Virus record (IMG/VR): IMGVR_UViG_3300011269_000008
Span: 1-43,831 of that record
DNA length: 43,831 nucleotides
Direction: 5' to 3' (one strand)
Origin: a virus
Below are positions 10,753 through 39,972 of the stretch, piece by piece. Each line of letters opens with the position of its first letter. Within the stretch, counting starts at the first letter, position 1. Both the position numbers and the translations under genes were made by a program. Under the pieces are notes generated by a model. It was not told where the DNA came from and did not search any database. It saw only the letters and a list, made by a program, of their open reading frames with translations.

Positions 10753-11139
10753 TCAAATGCTCCGTGCGCGGATGAGAACGGTCACAACGGCATTGGCACC
10801 ATTCGTGAGGCCAGCGCCGAGCACGATCTTGATCGTGTCGCCTTCGGTGACGGCCTGGCGGGCAGACAGGCTGACGCCCTGGAACGCTGATGTGCCGGAT
10901 GACTGGCCGACAACCGCGGACGTGCAGGCGACCGTCGCGCCGGCCACGTTATTGACCGTGAAGGTGAGCGTCGCCGGACCGGCGGTTATCGCTGTGCCGT
11001 CGATCGCCACGATATAGACGCCGAGAATTTCGCCACGCGTGGGACAGCCCACGGCGATGGTAAATCCGGCGGTAATGGTGGCCGCGGAACCCACCGTAAG
11101 TGGGATATCAAAATCGCGGGTATTGACGGGAAGAGCCAT
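10753..11139 (-). CDS. Putative head decoration protein
   Basis: 128 aa, almost free of charged residues, with Thr/Ala/Val/Gly-rich strands. It begins MALPVNTRDFDIPLTVGSAA and ends VVTVLIRARS. It is the first gene after the major capsid gene, where small capsid-decorating proteins commonly lie. The fold is inferred from composition. Confidence 0.55.
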   Translation of the reverse strand: MALPVNTRDFDIPLTVGSAATITAGFTIAVGCPTRGEILGVYIVAIDGTAITAGPATLTFTVNNVAGATVACTSAVVGQSSGTSAFQGVSLSARQAVTEGDTIKIVLGAGLTNGANAVVTVLIRARSI

Positions 11140-21368: not shown

Positions 21369-21896
21369 CTACGATTGAGCGGCTACGAATTGATCGGGCG
21401 AGAACATGGCAGGGACTTTACGTCCCAAGACCGACAATAGTAATTCAACGCTTTCGCCGTCGTCAAGGTCCCCGACGCGAGCAAAGTAGCCAGCGAAGGG
21501 TCCCTTGTTGATGAATACCTCGCTTCCGGGCTGGAAGCGAGGTGGAGCGCCTTTGCTATCATGCGGACTCATCAAGGAAATTTCCGTTCGGCGGATTTCT
21601 TCGTAAACGCCCTCTGGAAGCGTCGCATAGCCGTTTCCATTCTGCATTAGGCTGTGCGTTGTGCGGACACCGGGGCAGGTTTCGAGCCGCCGCCAGCCTT
21701 GAGCGATTGGCGAATCAACAAAAAGATAGCCTGGAAACATCGACTTGACGCGCCTCACGTATCGATTACGGCCCCAATAGACACGCTTTGGGCAGCGGGG
21801 ATTGTAGATGAGATAGCCACGATCACGGAGGGCTTCGGCCGTTTCAAGATCGCGCCGCGTATCTTCTGTCAGTGCGATGTGCCAGCGCTCGACCAT
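21369..21896 (-). CDS. NusG/RfaH-like transcription elongation factor
   Basis: 175 aa. The NGN domain covers about residues 4-105 (RWHIALTEDTRRDLETAEAL; KRVYWGRNRYVRRVKSMFPG; YLFVDSP). The KOW domain covers about 121-172 (FQPGSEVFINKGPFAGYFAR, then VELLLSVLGRKVPAMFSPDQF). It would bind the RNA polymerase clamp. It is the last gene before terS, so a processive antiterminator for the roughly 21-kb late operon is likely, as RfaH and other specialised NusG paralogs do for long operons. Confidence 0.9.
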   Translation of the reverse strand: MVERWHIALTEDTRRDLETAEALRDRGYLIYNPRCPKRVYWGRNRYVRRVKSMFPGYLFVDSPIAQGWRRLETCPGVRTTHSLMQNGNGYATLPEGVYEEIRRTEISLMSPHDSKGAPPRFQPGSEVFINKGPFAGYFARVGDLDDGESVELLLSVLGRKVPAMFSPDQFVAAQS

Positions 21897-31302: not shown

Positions 31303-31672
31303 AACTCTCCTATCCCGCCTCCAATCCGCCACCGGCCCAAGCCGCGAGCTTGATCGCGCCATAGCAGAATCGCTTGGCTATCAGGTCGAGGTAATCCGCG
31401 TTCCTGATGACCATCCTATTTTCAAGCCCGGCGGCGGCCTCGAATTCATGGTGAAGGACGGTCAGCGGACAGCTATTCCGCCATGGACCGAATCCATCGA
31501 CGCGGCGCTGACGCTAATGCCGGAAGGTTTCTATTGGGACGTATCGTCAAATCCTAATGGCTTCTTGGCTGAGGTATGGGCAACGACCGTATTTGATGGT
31601 CATTCCAAAGCCACTCCCGCCATCGCTCTTCTTATCGCAATCGAGCGGGCACAAGAGGACAGAAAGCTATGA
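31295..31672 (+). CDS. Phage ABA-sandwich-like protein
   Basis: 125 aa with GTG start. SRELDRAIAESLGYQVEVIR, then IPPWTESIDAALTLMPEGFY, WDVSSNPNGFLAEVWATT and TPAIALLIAIERAQED match the phage ABA-sandwich family (a small alpha-beta-alpha domain with D-A-A-L-x-L-x-P). Family function is unknown. Confidence 0.75.
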   Translation: MSETLLSRLQSATGPSRELDRAIAESLGYQVEVIRVPDDHPIFKPGGGLEFMVKDGQRTAIPPWTESIDAALTLMPEGFYWDVSSNPNGFLAEVWATTVFDGHSKATPAIALLIAIERAQEDRKL

Positions 31673-31875
31673 CCGACTCCACCGCAATGCGGAAATATAC
31701 TCTGATCCAGCCCGTCGTGGATGAAGACTTTCCCGACGCGCACAACGTGTTCTTGCAAGTGACGAACCAGCGCTTTTGCGTCACGCAGCATGGCTGCGAA
31801 ACCAAGGAAGAGGCCGAGTGGTGCCGTGATCAGCTCTGTATCGCGCTGGCGAAGATCGTGGGGGATAGCAAATGA
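31669..31875 (+). CDS. Small early protein
   Basis: 68 aa, MTDSTAMRKYTLIQPVVDED, HNVFLQVTNQRFCVTQHGCE, then TKEEAEWCRDQLCIALAKIV. A beta-beta-alpha layout with several Cys is visible. ATGA overlaps on both sides. Function unknown. Confidence 0.65.
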   Translation: MTDSTAMRKYTLIQPVVDEDFPDAHNVFLQVTNQRFCVTQHGCETKEEAEWCRDQLCIALAKIVGDSK

Positions 31876-34751: not shown

Positions 34752-35136
34752 TCATTGCCTCGATCGCGTTTAATTGTGGCGGACGACTGTCACATAGATG
34801 AACAATGTGAAAATCGTTGTCGTTTCGTTGCGAGTCAGAATGTCGCGGCAAATGGCTCTATTTTACTAACTGATTCGCGAGACTCATCTATTTCTGTTCT
34901 CACATTCTATTTCAAAACAGAACGAATACGGAATATATACTTCGCATCATCTTTCGCCGCCAAGTAATATGCAATATATTGGGCGCGTGTCGGAGGATGG
35001 GTTTCGGACATGCACCATCGATCGAAGCCATCCGAAACATGATGGACCGCGGTACACTCAGAGAGCTCCCCGAGTAAGCCCCGTCCTCCGACTACCCTTA
35101 TGTAAGGGAATCGCAGTCGGCGGCTTGTGGAATGCA
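34752..35136. other. Structured, partly AT-rich non-coding region
   Basis: No convincing gene. It holds three GANTC sites (34832, 34872, 34881). It also holds nested inverted repeats: GTCGGAGGA/TCCTCCGAC (34989-34997, 35084-35092) enclosing GTTTCGGA/TCCGAAAC (35001-35008, 35031-35038), then CCCTTA-tg-TAAGGG (35095-35108). GTCGGCGGCT occurs near 35121, a partial copy of the six-copy repeat. A 34-codon minus frame (35011-34907, MSETHPPTRAQYIAYYLAAK) could be a tiny gene but has no RBS. Confidence 0.5.
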
Positions 35137-35391
35137 CTAGAGCAATCGTATGTCGCGATGAAGCGACAGCTCGCATCCTTCCCCCATACAAACGCCGTTT
35201 GCCATGAGTCGGAATTTGGCTTTGCCACCACAGCCGCACCGACATTTGAGATAGTGGCCGCCACGGGCGTCTTGCGGCTCGACGTAGAGACGATGGCGCA
35301 AAATCGAGCCATGTTGGCCCCAGGCTTCCGTTCCGCCTTCCATGGCGGCTTTTAGGGCGGCCGGGGATAGCTCATTAAGTTTCATTGGCAT
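35137..35391 (-). CDS. Small zinc-ribbon-like accessory protein
   Basis: 84 aa; MKLNELSPAALKAAMEGGTE may be the true N-terminus two codons in. YLKCRCGCGGKAKFRLMANG, then VCMGEGCELSLHRDIRLL has C-x-C-x-C and C-x-x-x-x-C clusters suggesting a metal site. It is the last gene of the minus array, just after repeat copy A. Confidence 0.55.
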   Translation of the reverse strand: MPMKLNELSPAALKAAMEGGTEAWGQHGSILRHRLYVEPQDARGGHYLKCRCGCGGKAKFRLMANGVCMGEGCELSLHRDIRLL

Positions 35392-35403
35392 CACACTGCG
35401 ATA

Positions 35404-35446
35404 AGTCGGCGGCTCGCTGCCAAGCCTACCTCACGGAAGGCTTAAG
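35404..35446 (-). repeat. Intergenic hairpin repeat, copy A
   Basis: Plus-strand core GTCGGCGGCTCGCTGCCAAG followed by CCTACC and TCACGGAAGGCTT. On the transcribed minus strand it can fold AAGCCT ... AGGCTT and GGC-agcga-GCC. It lies between the stop of the gene at 35442 and the start at 35391. Confidence 0.85.
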
Positions 35447-35693
35447 AAGCGACCCGCAAGATGAATTGCCCTCTATGCCACCGGCCGTTTGCTGGAATTG
35501 GTAAATCCTGCCATGCGATGACGGTCGCCATTTCAGGCTCTCCGTTGTTAAGCCAACGTCGCCTCTGGTGATCGAAGGCGCGAATGCCAACCCATGTCAT
35601 TCCATCTTGCAAGAGCGTGACCAGCTTTCGCGCGTCGCCTTCTGAAACATTGCTACTGTAATCCCATCCATCGGATTGCGCAGTCATTATCAT
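35442..35693 (-). CDS. Small accessory protein
   Basis: 83 aa (81 from the second ATG). AQSDGWDYSSNVSEGDARKL, VTLLQDGMTWVGIRAFDHQR, PEMATVIAWQDLPIPANGRW; looks like a small beta-rich domain. Flanked by repeat copies A and B. Function unknown. Confidence 0.6.
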   Translation of the reverse strand: MIMTAQSDGWDYSSNVSEGDARKLVTLLQDGMTWVGIRAFDHQRRRWLNNGEPEMATVIAWQDLPIPANGRWHRGQFILRVAS

Positions 35694-35702
35694 CTCGCAG
35701 TC

Positions 35703-35740
35703 AGTCGGCGGCTCGCTGCCAAGCCTACCTCACGGTGGCC
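35703..35740 (-). repeat. Intergenic hairpin repeat, copy B
   Basis: Same invariant core as copy A, with CACGGTGGCC at the variable end. The last codons and TAG of the upstream gene product (ending TVR) lie inside the repeat. Confidence 0.85.
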
Positions 35741-36003
35741 GCGACATCATGAGAGGATTCGGCTTTCTCTAGAGGGCGAAACTTGCGATGATCGAAAGAC
35801 CATTCGGCTTCATCGTCGTCGTTCCAAATGATCGACGGATTTGGCAATTCCGCCAGCCTGATGCCGTAGCCCTCGATATGCGGCTCTCTGTGAATTGAGG
35901 CGACGGTATAGATTTCCCCCTTCTTAGGACGTAACGGCACATAAGGCAGGCAATCTGCTCGTATCGTCTCGTCAATACACACGACCTTCTGTCCGATGCG
36001 CAC
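35725..36003 (-). CDS. Small accessory protein, SH3-like layout
   Basis: 92 aa, GTG start with GGAG upstream. MRIGQKVVCIDETIRADCLP, YVPLRPKKGEIYTVASIHRE, GYGIRLAELPNPSIIWND, FDHRKFRPLEKAES follows a pattern of five short strands that I have seen in phage proteins binding nothing known. Its stop lies in repeat copy B, its start follows copy C. Confidence 0.65.
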   Translation of the reverse strand: MRIGQKVVCIDETIRADCLPYVPLRPKKGEIYTVASIHREPHIEGYGIRLAELPNPSIIWNDDDEAEWSFDHRKFRPLEKAESSHDVAATVR

Positions 36004-36033
36004 TTGTTTCTCCAGTTCTCGTTAAATGAACGA

Positions 36034-36072
36034 GGTCGGCGGCTCGCTGCCAAGCCTACCCCACAGGAGGCT
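36034..36072 (-). repeat. Intergenic hairpin repeat, copy C
   Basis: Invariant core present; the variable end is CCCACAGGAGGCT. It is extended by an extra hairpin TCTCA ... TGAGA (to about 36092) that is also found beside copy F. Confidence 0.85.
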
Positions 36073-36466
36073 CGCTCTCACCACGAGGATGAGAAGAGCA
36101 TGGACCGGCATTCCAACGGCATTCCGCCTGTTTTTCCTTTGATGGCGGCAGACCAGAACCCGGATCACAGCCACATTGCGGAACCCGTTCGAACGGCAGA
36201 TTGCATTCTCGAAGGCGCGCCTGCCTGACGGTAGGCTCATTCTTCAGAACTATTCTGACAACGCCACGGCATGGTTTGTTTTTCCGATCGGCGCGGCGAA
36301 CGATGCCACAGCTCTTGCAGCATTCCCATTGCAACCAATCCAGTTTGAACCACTCGTGCGTTTCGTCGTCTGTCATGACCCCTGAGTCTCGCGTCTTGCC
36401 GCCCCGTAAAAGCCGCAAGCAGGCATGATGGATTTCTCCAACCGTCGGGGTTCCGAGTGCTTTCAC
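36056..36466 (-). CDS. Cys-rich accessory protein
   Basis: 136 aa with GTG start, or 106 aa from the ATG at 36376. WECCKSCGIVRRADRKNKPC is a probable zinc knuckle; further Cys lie in VPQCGCDPG and AECRWNAGPCSS. It ends GESEPPVG with the stop in repeat copy C, and follows copy D. Function unknown. Confidence 0.55.
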   Translation of the reverse strand: MKALGTPTVGEIHHACLRLLRGGKTRDSGVMTDDETHEWFKLDWLQWECCKSCGIVRRADRKNKPCRGVVRIVLKNEPTVRQARLRECNLPFERVPQCGCDPGSGLPPSKEKQAECRWNAGPCSSHPRGESEPPVG

Positions 36467-36478
36467 ACCGCGAGATTC

Positions 36479-36517
36479 AGTCGGCGGCTCGCTGCCAAGC
36501 CTACCTCACGGAAGGCT
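36479..36517 (-). repeat. Intergenic hairpin repeat, copy D
   Basis: Invariant core with CTCACGGAAGGCT at the variable end. The stop of the gene at 36516 lies at its edge. Confidence 0.85.
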
Positions 36518-36758
36518 ACCGGCTTTTCTCTAGCCCTTCGAAGCTGGCACCGTGGAAACCAAGCGCCGTTTCGTAGGTATCCTTGGTTTCACCTTGATAG
36601 CTCACGGCCGCAACGATAGATGCCCATTCGGACGGCGGAATCTCGCGCTGCCATTCGACTTCATCGGTCCTGCCATGTTTGGTCTGTGTCAGCTCGACTG
36701 TTCCATCATTAAGGCGACGAAAATATAGACCATCTGACCAGTGAAAGCCGTCTCTCAT
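36516..36758 (-). CDS. Small accessory protein
   Basis: 80 aa from the ATG in the ATGA overlap (GGAG upstream). MRDGFHWSDGLYFRRLNDGT, VELTQTKHGRTDEVEWQREI, PPSEWASIVAAVSYQGETK. Strand-rich start then a helix. Function unknown. Confidence 0.65.
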   Translation of the reverse strand: MRDGFHWSDGLYFRRLNDGTVELTQTKHGRTDEVEWQREIPPSEWASIVAAVSYQGETKDTYETALGFHGASFEGLEKSR

Positions 36759-36943
36759 AGATCGCTCCATTTTCCTGAGTTTGTCGCATGCTCGCCATAG
36801 CTATCACCGCATTTTGGGCAGCACCAATACCTGCCGCGTAATTCAAGAAGCGGACGCGGATCATCGCCGCCCCACGACTGGCAGTTAAGCTTGACGCAGA
36901 CTTCGGTAGGGCAGCAACCCTGATCTTCACAATCGTCGTCCAT
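36755..36943 (-). CDS. Small zinc-binding accessory protein
   Basis: 62 aa. MDDDCEDQGCCPTEVCVKLN, CQSWGGDDPRPLLELRGRYW, CCPKCGDSYGEHATNSG. Several C-x-x-C-type pairs indicate a zinc-binding fold. AAAGGACAAAGG precedes the ATG, right after repeat copy E. It is the only pair in the array (with the next gene) not separated by a repeat. Confidence 0.65.
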   Translation of the reverse strand: MDDDCEDQGCCPTEVCVKLNCQSWGGDDPRPLLELRGRYWCCPKCGDSYGEHATNSGKWSDL

Positions 36944-36957
36944 CCTTTGTCCTTTCA

Positions 36958-36998
36958 CTCGGCGGCTCGCTGCCAAGCCTACCTCACGGGAGGCTTAA
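36958..36998 (-). repeat. Intergenic hairpin repeat, copy E
   Basis: Invariant core with CTCACGGGAGGCTTAAGG at the variable end. On the minus strand AAGCCT-cccgtgaggt-AGGCTT is a perfect 6-bp stem. The last codons PPVR and TAG of the upstream gene are inside it. Confidence 0.85.
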
Positions 36999-37155
36999 GG
37001 AACGTAAGGGCTGAGCCGACATGCCACCCGATTTTTGTCAATGGACCAGCATCGTGACCCCGCTCTTCAAGAATTTCCTCACAAATTTTAAGCTGCCTGA
37101 CTGCCGCTTCATACTGGACGCGAGGGATAGTGACGGTGTCTGCATTCAAGCTCAT
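36979..37155 (-). CDS. Small accessory protein, first of the repeat array
   Basis: 58 aa. MSLNADTVTIPRVQYEAAVR, QLKICEEILEERGHDAGPLT, KIGWHVGSALTFLKPPVR. An AGGAGG ribosome-binding site lies 6 nt before the ATG. Helical. PRVQYEA is a motif also seen in a small early protein at 32246. The stop is inside repeat copy E; the start follows copy F. Confidence 0.7.
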   Translation of the reverse strand: MSLNADTVTIPRVQYEAAVRQLKICEEILEERGHDAGPLTKIGWHVGSALTFLKPPVR

Positions 37156-37171
37156 GTGGTCCTCCTGTCAA

Positions 37172-37210
37172 AGTCGGCGGCTCGCTGCCAAGCCTACCTT
37201 ACGGAAGGCT
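37172..37210 (-). repeat. Intergenic hairpin repeat, copy F
   Basis: Invariant core with CTTACGGAAGGCT at the variable end, followed by the extra hairpin CTCTCA ... TGAGAG (37213-37234). This is the copy farthest upstream on the transcribed minus strand. A partial inverted copy (GCGAGCCGCC) lies near 37247. Confidence 0.85.
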
Positions 37211-37683
37211 CACTCTCACCACAGCGGATGAGAGCTCACATCTAAGCGAGCCGCCTAGCTTGGCGCCCCTGCCTCATTGTGAGGCCGCCTCTGTGAGCCG
37301 CGGTGGGCACGTCCACGCTTACCCGACGGATGCAGGAAGACGTGTGTGTTCGCGGCCCGGGACACGGGGCATCAACAAAGGCCAAGGCGCCCGTATATGT
37401 GCACATAGACAAGCCTGATGACGTATATCTACTCATATACATCGCCCCGGCTTGCCGGAGGGCCATCCGATATCGGCAGGAGGTGGGAGCGCTGACGAGG
37501 CGCTCCCTACGCCGATAACGACGACCCCTACTATAGGACTCATATCCTGGACACCATTGTCAGGAACGCCTAGCTTTAGCTTCTCGCGGGCCGGGCGCTA
37601 CTCCGGCTTGGCGCTCGTGTCAGAGGGCGCAACTCTGAATGCCTTCCACGCCACCGCGAGAAGAGCCCCCGGCACGCCGGAGG
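37211..37683. other. Hairpin-dense non-coding region
   Basis: No convincing gene in 470 bp. Exact inverted repeats include GCCTCA-ttg-TGAGGC (37271-37285), the palindrome TATGTGCACATA (~37395-37406), GTATAT-ctactc-ATATAC (37423-37440), and CCGGC-tt-GCCGG (37447-37458). TATCGGC/GCCGATA encloses GGGAGCGC/GCGCTCCC (37471-37518). CTTCTCGCGG/CCGCGAGAAG (37580-37589, 37654-37663) encloses GCCGG/CCGGC and CAGAG/CTCTG stems. A hairpin at 37666-37685 directly follows the stop of the gene at 37684 and may end that transcript. Candidate structured RNA or replication origin. Confidence 0.55.
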
Positions 37684-37872
37684 CTAAGATTCAGGAATCA
37701 GATGATTCCACTTCACCGTTCCAAACGTGCCGTCGTCCCATGTCATGAAGGCATCACCATCATGCATGAATTCATCGGCGACGCCGCGGCGACCATCGGT
37801 CATATAGACCACACGATCGCCGGCTTTCATACCGCAGGCGCCAGATTTATTGGGGAGCACATGGGGGTGCAT
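37684..37872 (-). CDS. Small SH3-like accessory protein
   Basis: 62 aa from 37872, or 48 aa from the ATG at 37830. MKAGDRVVYMTDGRRGVADE, FMHDGDAFMTWDDGTFGTVK, WNHLIPES is a compact five-strand pattern (K-x-G-D-x-V...W-D-D-G). It starts 4 nt after the outer-membrane protein gene. Function unknown. Confidence 0.65.
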   Translation of the reverse strand: MHPHVLPNKSGACGMKAGDRVVYMTDGRRGVADEFMHDGDAFMTWDDGTFGTVKWNHLIPES

Positions 37873-37876
37873 TCGA

Positions 37877-38668
37877 TCAATTCCCGATCGGTAGACTGAT
37901 GCCGACCCCCGCCATCAGCCGCTGCTCGTTCTTTGCCGCCATCGTATTGGCGAACAGCGGAACCGATTGCGTCGGCGTAAACGTCTGGTTGAAGAAAATA
38001 TAGTCATACTCGACGCGAACCGAAACATTCGGAGAGACAGCGAATCGAGCTTGTGCGCCGGTCAGGAGGCCGTTCTTCCATTGATTGCCGCAGAGATTTT
38101 CACCTGTGACGAGGTCCATGGCGCAAAGATCGACATTGCGCTGTGCGGCGCCGACGACGCCAAGCAGCATCATGTTCTGAGCGAAGCCAGCCGGTACCGT
38201 GATTGGGACGGGCCAATTTGCCGGCTGCGCAGCTCCCGGGACATAGCCGGTGATCTGCGAGATCGTGATACCTGCCAGCGCCTTCTCGGCGAAGAACCAT
38301 GAGTTCTTGGCTTGCCCAAGACAGGGCATGATGCCGATGCAGCCGACGGAAGCCCGCGTGAAGTCATAGTTCGCCTCCGCCTCCACCCCAATCGACAGAG
38401 GGCCAATGCTACTCAGATAGCCGGCGCCACCGCCAACCATGGCTCCGGCAGGCCAAAGCTTTGGGGTGCCCGTGGCTACACCAGGCAAAGCAATATCGTT
38501 CTGTACATCGGTAATGCCCGCGCCGCCATGGATAAAGAGATAGAAAGGGCTGGGGACCGGAGCGATGGCGGATTTCAGTGGGGGCCTCGCGGGAAGATCG
38601 GCGGCGATGACCGGGATTGTCCCGGCCATTGCCGCAAGAGCGGCGAGAGAGAGGATGAGGCGATTCAT
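37877..38668 (-). CDS. Omp25/Omp31-like outer-membrane beta-barrel protein
   Basis: 263 aa. Signal peptide MNRLILSLAALAAMAGTIPV ending at IAA, then mature DLPARPPLKSAIAPVPSPFY. Alternating strands (FYLFIHGGAGITDV; SIGVEAEANYDF; ARFAVSPNVSVRVEYDYIFF) and a C-terminal RLMAGVGISLPIGN resemble the small 8-strand barrels abundant in Rhizobiales. In a phage this is a moron that could mask or replace a receptor, or alter the lysogen surface. It sits in the accessory minus operon beside the Acb2-like gene. Confidence 0.85.
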   Translation of the reverse strand: MNRLILSLAALAAMAGTIPVIAADLPARPPLKSAIAPVPSPFYLFIHGGAGITDVQNDIALPGVATGTPKLWPAGAMVGGGAGYLSSIGPLSIGVEAEANYDFTRASVGCIGIMPCLGQAKNSWFFAEKALAGITISQITGYVPGAAQPANWPVPITVPAGFAQNMMLLGVVGAAQRNVDLCAMDLVTGENLCGNQWKNGLLTGAQARFAVSPNVSVRVEYDYIFFNQTFTPTQSVPLFANTMAAKNEQRLMAGVGISLPIGN

Positions 38669-39408: not shown

Positions 39409-39555
39409 TCACCTCGCTTTCGAAGGGTTTTCCTTGTTCGCCTTAGCCTCCAAGGCGCGGAGAGCGCGAAGAACAGTAGCTCCCGGCTTTTCATCGTCTT
39501 CGCGTAGCCGCTGCAATAGCTTCACCATTTCGATGCGCTCTTCGGTATGGCTCAT
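39409..39555 (-). CDS. 48-aa helical protein
   Basis: MSHTEERIEMVKLLQRLRED, DEKPGATVLRALRALEAKAN, KENPSKAR. ATGA overlap with the preceding gene (GKKR stop). Strongly helical and charged. It is the last gene before the terminator. Function unknown. Confidence 0.6.
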   Translation of the reverse strand: MSHTEERIEMVKLLQRLREDDEKPGATVLRALRALEAKANKENPSKAR

Positions 39556-39599
39556 CGCTTCTTCCCCAACGAGTCACTTTGCCGCGGCTTTAGCGCCTG
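39547..39599. repeat. 53-bp duplicated gene junction, copy 1
   Basis: ATGGCTCATC ... GAGTCACTTTGCCGCGGCTT ... GCGCCTG is repeated at 39920-39972 with four mismatches. It covers the coding end (QALKPRQSDSxGKKR), the stop and the next start (MSH) of two different gene pairs. Confidence 0.85.
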
Positions 39600-39728: not shown

Positions 39729-39928
39729 TCGTATTGCTTCCACGAAAGATCTTCGGCGCTTCGAAGAATGCGCGCGCACCGCGAGCAGCTATCTACTGAA
39801 ATCATCCACGATCGCTTACGTGAAGTCGGGCCATTGCGCTCCCGTTGCGGAACATGCCAGCATAATTCTTCATCGAGGCCTTCGGGCGCGCAATACCATT
39901 GCGACCATGCTGCATCGGGATGGCTCAT
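39686..39928 (-). CDS. Small Cys-containing accessory protein
   Basis: 80 aa. MSHPDAAWSQWYCAPEGLDE, ELCWHVPQRERNG, SWMISVDSCSRCARILRSAE, ending WVRRWNRRILMTP. The SCSRC pair may bind metal. ATGA overlap with the RHH gene; 43-nt overlap with the next gene. Function unknown. Confidence 0.55.
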   Translation of the reverse strand: MSHPDAAWSQWYCAPEGLDEELCWHVPQRERNGPTSRKRSWMISVDSCSRCARILRSAEDLSWKQYEWVRRWNRRILMTP

Positions 39929-39972
39929 CTTTTCTTCCCCGATGAGTCACTTTGCCGCGGCTTTAGCGCCTG
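39920..39972. repeat. 53-bp duplicated gene junction, copy 2
   Basis: Second copy of the junction at 39547-39599, four mismatches. Spacing 373 bp. Arrangement implies duplication of a gene end plus start rather than of whole genes. Confidence 0.85.

Follow-up and report, generated by a model that had tools for sequence, protein, structure and literature searches.

Stem-loops repeated between small non-essential genes, the PeSL cassettes of T4-type phages reportedly described by Arbiol et al. in 2010, are thought to drive modular shuffling through recombination, and a PeSL unit is said to combine an early promoter with a terminator-like stem-loop. In the cluster K mycobacteriophages, start-associated sequences (SAS) are repeats that all point the same way and directly precede small genes of different families, and the ESAS form adds inverted repeats to them (PMC3203893, available excerpt). 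REPs are palindromes in 3' untranslated regions which stabilise the upstream mRNA and affect translation when located within 15 nucleotides (nt) of the stop codon (PMC5082802, available excerpt). The virus record IMGVR_UViG_3300011269_000008, analysed here over its whole length of 43,831 bases (the window), carries a hairpin repeat in an array of very small minus-strand genes, and we report that these repeats are the 3' end of a larger RNA of ~80 nt which folds as a three-way junction.

Like PeSL units, the repeats of the window bound exchangeable small-gene cassettes, but each of them is a piece of a three-way-junction RNA. A scan of positions 34900–38000, limited to an E. coli-type consensus, gave no sigma-70-like promoter, and the sole terminator-like site found in the promoter/terminator scan was a seventh hairpin, read on the other strand. 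A likeness to SAS had been proposed in a sequence-only reading of this DNA. It holds for location, all six copies being placed directly upstream of starts in one orientation, with a minus-strand open reading frame (ORF) beginning 11–32 nt downstream of each (starts as predicted in the ORF list), and fails for sequence and structure. The SAS 13-mer, GGGATAGGAGCCC, differs from the repeat, and gave 2 matches with 2 mismatches in the window (1.08 expected), none of them at the repeats; the available excerpt of PMC3203893 describes no three-way junction for SAS or ESAS, and the complete element of the window is also linked in position to the stop codon before it. Br-REP1 and Br-REP2 of Bradyrhizobium are likewise palindromes behind genes, but Br-REP1 occupies ~200 sites (PMC5082802, available excerpt), whereas our element occurs once or twice per genome and its stem sequences are not conserved.

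The repeats and the three-way-junction RNA

The six copies start at 35405, 35704, 36035, 36480, 36958 and 37173, within 1 nt of the positions given in the sequence-only reading, whose perfectly conserved core of ~25 bp was also confirmed: the 25-mer GGTAGGCTTGGCAGCGAGCCGCCGA (minus strand) has no mismatch in any of the six. The 12-mer TCGGCGGCTCGC, with up to 1 mismatch, gave 8 matches in the window against 1.18 expected, and the 19-mer hairpin pattern AGCCTACCGTGAGGTAGGC, with up to 3 mismatches, gave 7 matches against 0.01 expected. The seventh of these, with 2 mismatches, is located within gene D at 36219–36237 and represents a degenerate copy missed in the earlier count of six. That reading had placed every copy between small minus-strand genes, which is true of the downstream side; directly upstream of copy 6, however, there is no gene and instead a noncoding stretch. 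Genes E and F have no repeat between them. Stop codons do occur within or at the edge of the repeat, as had been claimed, since the stop of genes C, D and G is the TAG of its GGTAGG, with C and G ending in VR and D in PPVG. The hairpin that had been seen is real, although it forms only one arm of the three-way junction, and the variable end of the repeat is the 5' arm of this hairpin.

The architecture of the RNA comprises an outer stem, P1, which is variable in sequence; a conserved hairpin, hp1, with the sequence CTCATCC, 5 nt, GGTGAG, followed by AGTG; and a second hairpin, hp2, with a GNRA loop (GTGA, GTAA or GCGA). The window carries two complete elements, a third that is truncated on the 5' side, four short pieces from the 3' end and a single degenerate hairpin (bit scores are those of the covariance model R1):

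37176–37255, minus strand: complete element no. 1; P1 GGCGGCTCGCT/AGCGAGCCGCC, hp1, and hp2 with GTAA loop; R1 match at 37178–37253, 78.3 bits
11165–11243, minus strand: complete element no. 2; 52.9 bits, not used to build R1; fold z −2.26
35405–35443, minus strand: repeat copy 1; hp2 and 3' strand of P1; between genes B and A
35704–35740, minus strand: repeat copy 2; hp2 with shorter arm and 3' strand of P1; between C and B; supplies the stop of C (after VR)
36035–36095, minus strand: repeat copy 3; hp1, hp2 and 3' strand of P1, without the 5' strand of P1; 32.3 bits; its TAG is the stop of gene D
36480–36518, minus strand: repeat copy 4; hp2 and 3' strand of P1; between E and D
36958–36996, minus strand: repeat copy 5; hp2 and 3' strand of P1; between G and F; supplies the stop of G (after PPVR)
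37173–37210, minus strand: repeat copy 6; 3' half of complete element no. 1
36219–36237, minus strand: seventh, degenerate copy; hp2 part only, inside codons 77–83 of gene D (EPTVRQA), with the stop TAG changed to CAG

Element no. 1 is among the ten sequences from which R1 was built; its P1 reaches 2 bp outward beyond the R1 match, and its fold z is −5.35. Element no. 2 follows the stop codon of the capsid gene by 7 nt and precedes the next ORF, which starts at 11139. Its letters differ from those of no. 1, and hp1 has a compensatory change from A-U to U-A. All seven full elements tested had fold z values from −2.3 to −5.7. The conserved stretch extends upstream of copy 6 into a noncoding region that also folds well (37171–37690, z −5.70).

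Members of the family and covariation

When the core was scanned against 2.9 million viral contigs, it was found in L001/L002 and L012, and later in L026, contigs otherwise nearly unlike the window; the sequence GGCTTGGCAGCGAGCCG occurs in 11 viral contigs, among which the repeat fits L001, L002 and L012 only. A scan with the block CATCCGCYRTGGTGAGAG and a looser scan with the hp1 pattern gave more contigs with the same architecture in other letters. Judged by eye, the structure is present in 20 of the 33 hp1-pattern contigs, partial in two (L044/L047), and absent in 11. L048, L058, L059, L064 and L069 repeat elements already counted. L052, L054, L057, L060, L061, L063, L066–L068, L070 and L071 were dropped since they have no junction, and most appear to be coding; L027, found via the block CTAAAGCTAGGC, is coding and unrelated. 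In genome contigs a scan for the core picked up 12 loci, all of which lack the GTGA hairpin, and a blastn search of named phages and plasmids with the element yielded chance-level matches or none.

The ten-member alignment (A2) has 95.7% paired cells, and both partners change in 17 of its 23 pairs; its covariation score is 0.766, compared with 0.200 when shuffled. The model R1 recovered its own ten sequences and 8 further members at E < 1e-9, including element no. 2 of the window. In the resulting alignment of 18 members, 96.1% of cells are paired and 18/23 pairs have double changes; the covariation analysis called for by the sequence-only reading came out strongly here, with a score of 0.753 against 0.182 when shuffled and 0.075–0.132 in slid controls. 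Each of the nine P1 pairs occurs as 2–5 standard pair types. In hp1 and the AGUG joint, sequence conservation exceeds what pairing needs, which suggests that something recognises the sequence. Four members (L046, L049, L050 and L053) have a P1 that continues outward beyond a conserved GGCG/CACC internal motif to 18–24 bp, which suggests a subfamily with a longer stem.

The phage element is an RNA structure uncatalogued in Rfam 15. No family of that release matched the window at the gathering score, matches within 37100–37800 were at chance level (E ≤ 10), and in eight viral loci that bear the element no family was recognised on it (E ≤ 5). We found no description of this RNA in the literature searched, which reaches few subscription papers.

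Position relative to genes

Sixteen phage cases were tested for position, with the tandem pair of L040 counted once. A co-directional ORF of at least 60 residues ends between −25 and +5 nt from P1 in 12/16 cases, against 3/16 on the other strand and 332 of 4000 random positions (8.3%; p 1.4e-10 for 12/16 against random). Downstream, an ATG is found 4–44 nt past P1 in most members. The flanking genes are unrelated in both length and sequence: in the window the gene upstream of element no. 2 encodes the major head protein; elsewhere the ORFs have 522, 1737 and 674 residues. The first of these we tentatively read as a terminase. In the sense orientation the alignment has 18 G·U cells against 7 A·C cells (p 0.043), as expected for an RNA read on the sense strand; four of the seven A·C cells are one conserved C·A in the outer stem (by eye), without which p becomes 0.0015. 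Covariation, covariance-model matches and context together establish that the element is located between genes, behind stop codons, in many unrelated phages.

Cassette exchange and the gene D fusion

The contigs L002, L026 and L044/L047 belong to one lineage, because over 600 nt their left flanks are 73–88% and their right flanks 60–67% identical. L044 and L047 are identical to each other; L012 was placed in the lineage by blastn, and its left-flank figures and between-anchor comparison were excluded as its left anchor is wrong. The distance between the anchors is 495 nt in L002, 680 nt in L026 and 1128 nt in L044, with different genes and with the repeat at the right border. In L001/L002 the interval holds a gene whose end is formed by a read-through copy, together with one further copy. 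In L026 it has no content other than noncoding RNA and an element whose hp2 carries an insertion. L012 has an upstream RNA module, an element with the hp2 insertion and two genes. L044 has the upstream module, a partial element, a homologue of gene D and another gene, with three repeat pieces in all. Throughout the lineage the interval is bordered on the right by the repeat's 3' end, in intact or decayed form. In the third copy of L044 the hairpin loop is inverted (AAGCCTACC TCAC GGTAGGCTT), the outcome expected if strands were switched across the palindrome, which suggests such an event.

The backbone of the window differs from that of this lineage. Common to both are the element, the second half of gene D, and the upstream module, which was delimited by blastn blocks shared with L012 and L044:

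37567–37690, minus strand: upstream module; terminal hairpin AGCCTCCGGC.., closing stem TTCTCGCGG../..CCGCGAGAAG, and block CTAAAGCTAGG

Between this module and element no. 1, the sequence at 37256–37566 is specific to the window. In addition, a homologue of one L012 cassette gene (76% identity over 66 residues) is located in the window at 31669–31875 on the plus strand, i.e., opposite to the array, with no repeat seen by eye. The genes of the array are as follows:

35137–35394, minus strand: gene A, 85 residues, phrog_28528, unknown function
35442–35693, minus strand: gene B, 83 residues, no family
35725–36003, minus strand: gene C, 92 residues, no family
36056–36466, minus strand: gene D, 136 residues, best read as two cassettes fused
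36516–36770, minus strand: gene E, 84 residues, overlapping F, with no repeat between E and F
36755–36943, minus strand: gene F, 62 residues
36979–37155, minus strand: gene G, 58 residues, its PPVR end and stop inside copy 5

No PHROG or Pfam family was found for six of the seven, gene A alone matching a PHROG of unknown function. Homologues of gene C were not found in phage records, gene D gave weak partial matches only, and genes B and C were each found in 0/126 genomes of the host-like genus.

Residues 85–135 of gene D share 67% identity over 51 residues with a stand-alone cassette gene of L044/L047; gene D and its L044 homologue both have repeats on either side and different neighbours. 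Codons 77–83 of gene D are the repeat hairpin with TAG changed to CAG, as in the first copy of L001 (...ETPVRQAWQRAAD...), and the homology to the L044 gene begins a few residues past this degenerate repeat. Because a CAG-for-TAG repeat stands just ahead of the homology, gene D is best read, from its sequence, as two cassettes fused via the lost stop codon of their joint. At the level of sequence comparison it is established that cassettes have been exchanged, and apparently once fused, at the 3' pieces. The proposal in the sequence-only reading of a recombination module that shuffles small genes is thus supported by the lineage comparison, by the cassette gene common to lineage and window, and by the gene D fusion; its expectation that cassettes differ while repeats stay was borne out in L001/L002, L026, L044/L047 and L012. 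An RNA-processing or protein-binding role, also raised there, may apply as well.

Occurrence in bacterial chromosomes

The nearest relative of the window's portal protein, with 45% identity, comes from Bradyrhizobium phage ppBeUSDA76-2, which does not carry the element. In one genus of the same order as Brucella, represented by G242, the model R2 gave a match at E ≤ 0.01 in 24/265 genomes, and the six genomes that were searched again have 1–2 matches each at this threshold. The genus is probably Bradyrhizobium, given exact copies of Br-REP1 in two genomes and the portal relative. Five of the 24 genomes (L134–L138) share one sequence that matches the element model with 33–43 bits and includes a three-way junction and a GNRA hairpin. 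Six bacterial loci were scanned with Rfam; in one of them, L134, the only one of L134–L138 for which the transfer-messenger RNA (tmRNA) placement was run, the element falls in the spacer of a permuted tmRNA gene, which separates the acceptor end from the 5' start of the coding piece. In L130 the element begins 12 nt past a tRNA gene, and in one genome there are two near-identical copies. In L105, L127 and their relatives the element has a transporter-like gene on one side and, on the other, the 3' end of a gene in the opposite orientation which looks like rlmE, both labels coming from the look of the sequence. A further five of the 24 genomes (L145–L149) gave low-scoring matches that appear to be coding and were rejected.

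Searching 397 genomes of one order with R1 gave matches in 13 genomes at E ≤ 0.01, with one clear member, L105; the remainder are palindromes in G143, G298, G121 and G200 (24–29 bits, with the look of hairpin-GTGA-hairpin) or coding and other sequence. Among 398 genomes of the phylum, scanned by pattern, there were three matches and no true member, and R2, run on 385 genomes of the class, matched only the palindrome-bearing G143, absence being weak evidence in such searches, which score few candidates per genome. At L107, L109, L110, L115 and L118–L123 there are chromosomal palindromes of the form CCCTCTCCCC...GGGAGAGGG TGGCCCTCGC GTGA GCGAGGG, with the same hairpin-GTGA-hairpin look and a weak match to the model.

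Proposed role and alternative explanations

We consider it fairly probable that the repeats represent 3' portions of an intercistronic RNA, read on the sense strand, which now serve as joints between cassettes, and that the parent RNA is most likely operon punctuation. The RNA would fold once the upstream gene is finished, and the fold might shield the upstream mRNA from 3' decay or mark a processing site, and separate that mRNA from the next translation start. A junction just past the stop codon could act as a barrier to 3' exonucleases, deny Rho access to the untranslated gap, define a cleavage site, or keep the translation of the two genes apart; the first of these is plausible by analogy with the REP literature, including the effects reported within 15 nt of a stop codon. 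The near-identical 3' piece would then have become the joint between small-gene cassettes in the window phage and in a second, unrelated lineage. Exchange and fusion most likely proceeded by ordinary homologous recombination, or by template switching, across ~30 bp of identity, the enzyme being supposed. If this is correct, Rfam 15 gains a missing RNA structure with very strong covariation, the repeat becomes a mark for locating exchangeable small-gene cassettes, which are a rich source of anti-host genes, and a rare cassette fusion can be read directly from the lost stop codon in a joint.

Several observations weigh against this proposal. The short copies are unable to form the three-way junction, so the RNA function may be lost in them. 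Some chromosomal copies sit between convergent genes, which weakens a strict role in sense mRNA, and the element of L045 falls inside a long ORF, although one that looks spurious. The P1 register of the ten-member alignment was chosen by hand to pair and the 18-member alignment was fitted to its model, so that the pair counts lean towards structure. Finally, no closer relative of the window was seen to have undergone a gene swap, and no recombinase was identified among the ORFs of the window that were scanned.

Among the alternatives, an antitermination role survives best, though we think it unlikely. The three-way junction would be a loading site like put/nut or the LoaP hairpin, at which an RfaH/NusG-like protein is taken up or RNA polymerase is made termination-resistant along long operons. 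The window does encode such a protein:

21369–21896, minus strand: NusG/RfaH-like protein, 175 residues; PF02357 at 24.1 bits (cut-off 22.2)

The best PDB match of its alignment A4 is RfaH (8.8e-21), and its top NCBIfam match is TIGR01955 RfaH, below the cut-off of that family. Such a gene is present in 4/9 element-bearing contigs of at least 30 kb (the window, L043, L053 and L069) and in 1/8 element-less contigs of that size, a difference that is not significant (Fisher p 0.29), and none was found in the other five element-bearing contigs even with a dedicated profile. This co-occurrence is a lead, not evidence, and to name the protein as a possible partner of the RNA is speculative. The conservation of hp1 and the AGUG junction beyond pairing would suit a loading site, and there are precedents in the HK022 put RNA, of ~70 nt with two stem-loops (PMC9378689, available excerpt), and in LoaP, which binds an RNA hairpin of the dfn operon (PMC12691694, available excerpt); as these excerpts describe them, both are small structured RNAs of a phage or operon which act in cis on transcription. 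However, put acts without a protein and is found near early promoters, and the LoaP target is a single UNCG hairpin in leaders, likewise near promoters, whereas our element is a three-way junction with a GNRA hairpin placed between genes deep in operons.

Only tentatively do we extend the punctuation reading to a portable module, common to phages and their hosts, that is set where an RNA unit ends and directs the cutting or ending of that unit, phages having reused its 3' strand as a swap joint. The RNA-unit ends that bear the element are stop codons in phage operons, a tRNA gene, and, in some host species, the spacer excised from the permuted pre-tmRNA.

It is improbable that the element is mobile palindromic DNA of the REP/MITE kind, spreading behind genes, whose RNA fold is incidental. 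Its scattering at gene ends and past a tRNA gene, the two near-identical copies in one genome, and the loop inversion in L044 would all be expected of such DNA. Against this, the stem letters are almost wholly different between members while the pairing is kept, the sense orientation prevails as described above (12/16 against 3/16), and the one or two copies (E ≤ 0.01) in each of the six host-like genomes contrast with the ~200 sites of Br-REP1 (PMC5082802, available excerpt). The Br-REP1 and Br-REP2 consensus sequences have no match in the window with up to 3 mismatches.

We give very little credit to the repeats being coding remnants or convergent C-termini, conserved as protein (PPVR and stop, or VRQAWQRAAD). 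The repeat does form the C-terminus of three cassette genes and the L001 gene reads through it, but genes B and E stop short of the conserved part, full elements elsewhere sit past stop codons, and the identity is at the DNA level with noncoding flanks included; the noncoding copies already contradict this reading. The core of an integron attC site is GTTRRRY, and this motif is inside no repeat copy from 35678 on (2 matches in 3076 bases, at window positions 36021 and 36884; first copy judged by eye). An array of integron-like attC cassettes is accordingly the least credible of the alternatives, even though each small gene of the array is followed by a palindromic repeat and phage integrons have reportedly been described (PMC9892861).

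Other features of the region

The interval at 37256–37690 (minus strand), upstream of element no. 1, is long, noncoding and highly structured, and its ends alone are common to L012 and L044. In the same right-hand region the window has two direct repeats of 58 bases, 91% identical, at 39542–39599 and 39915–39972.

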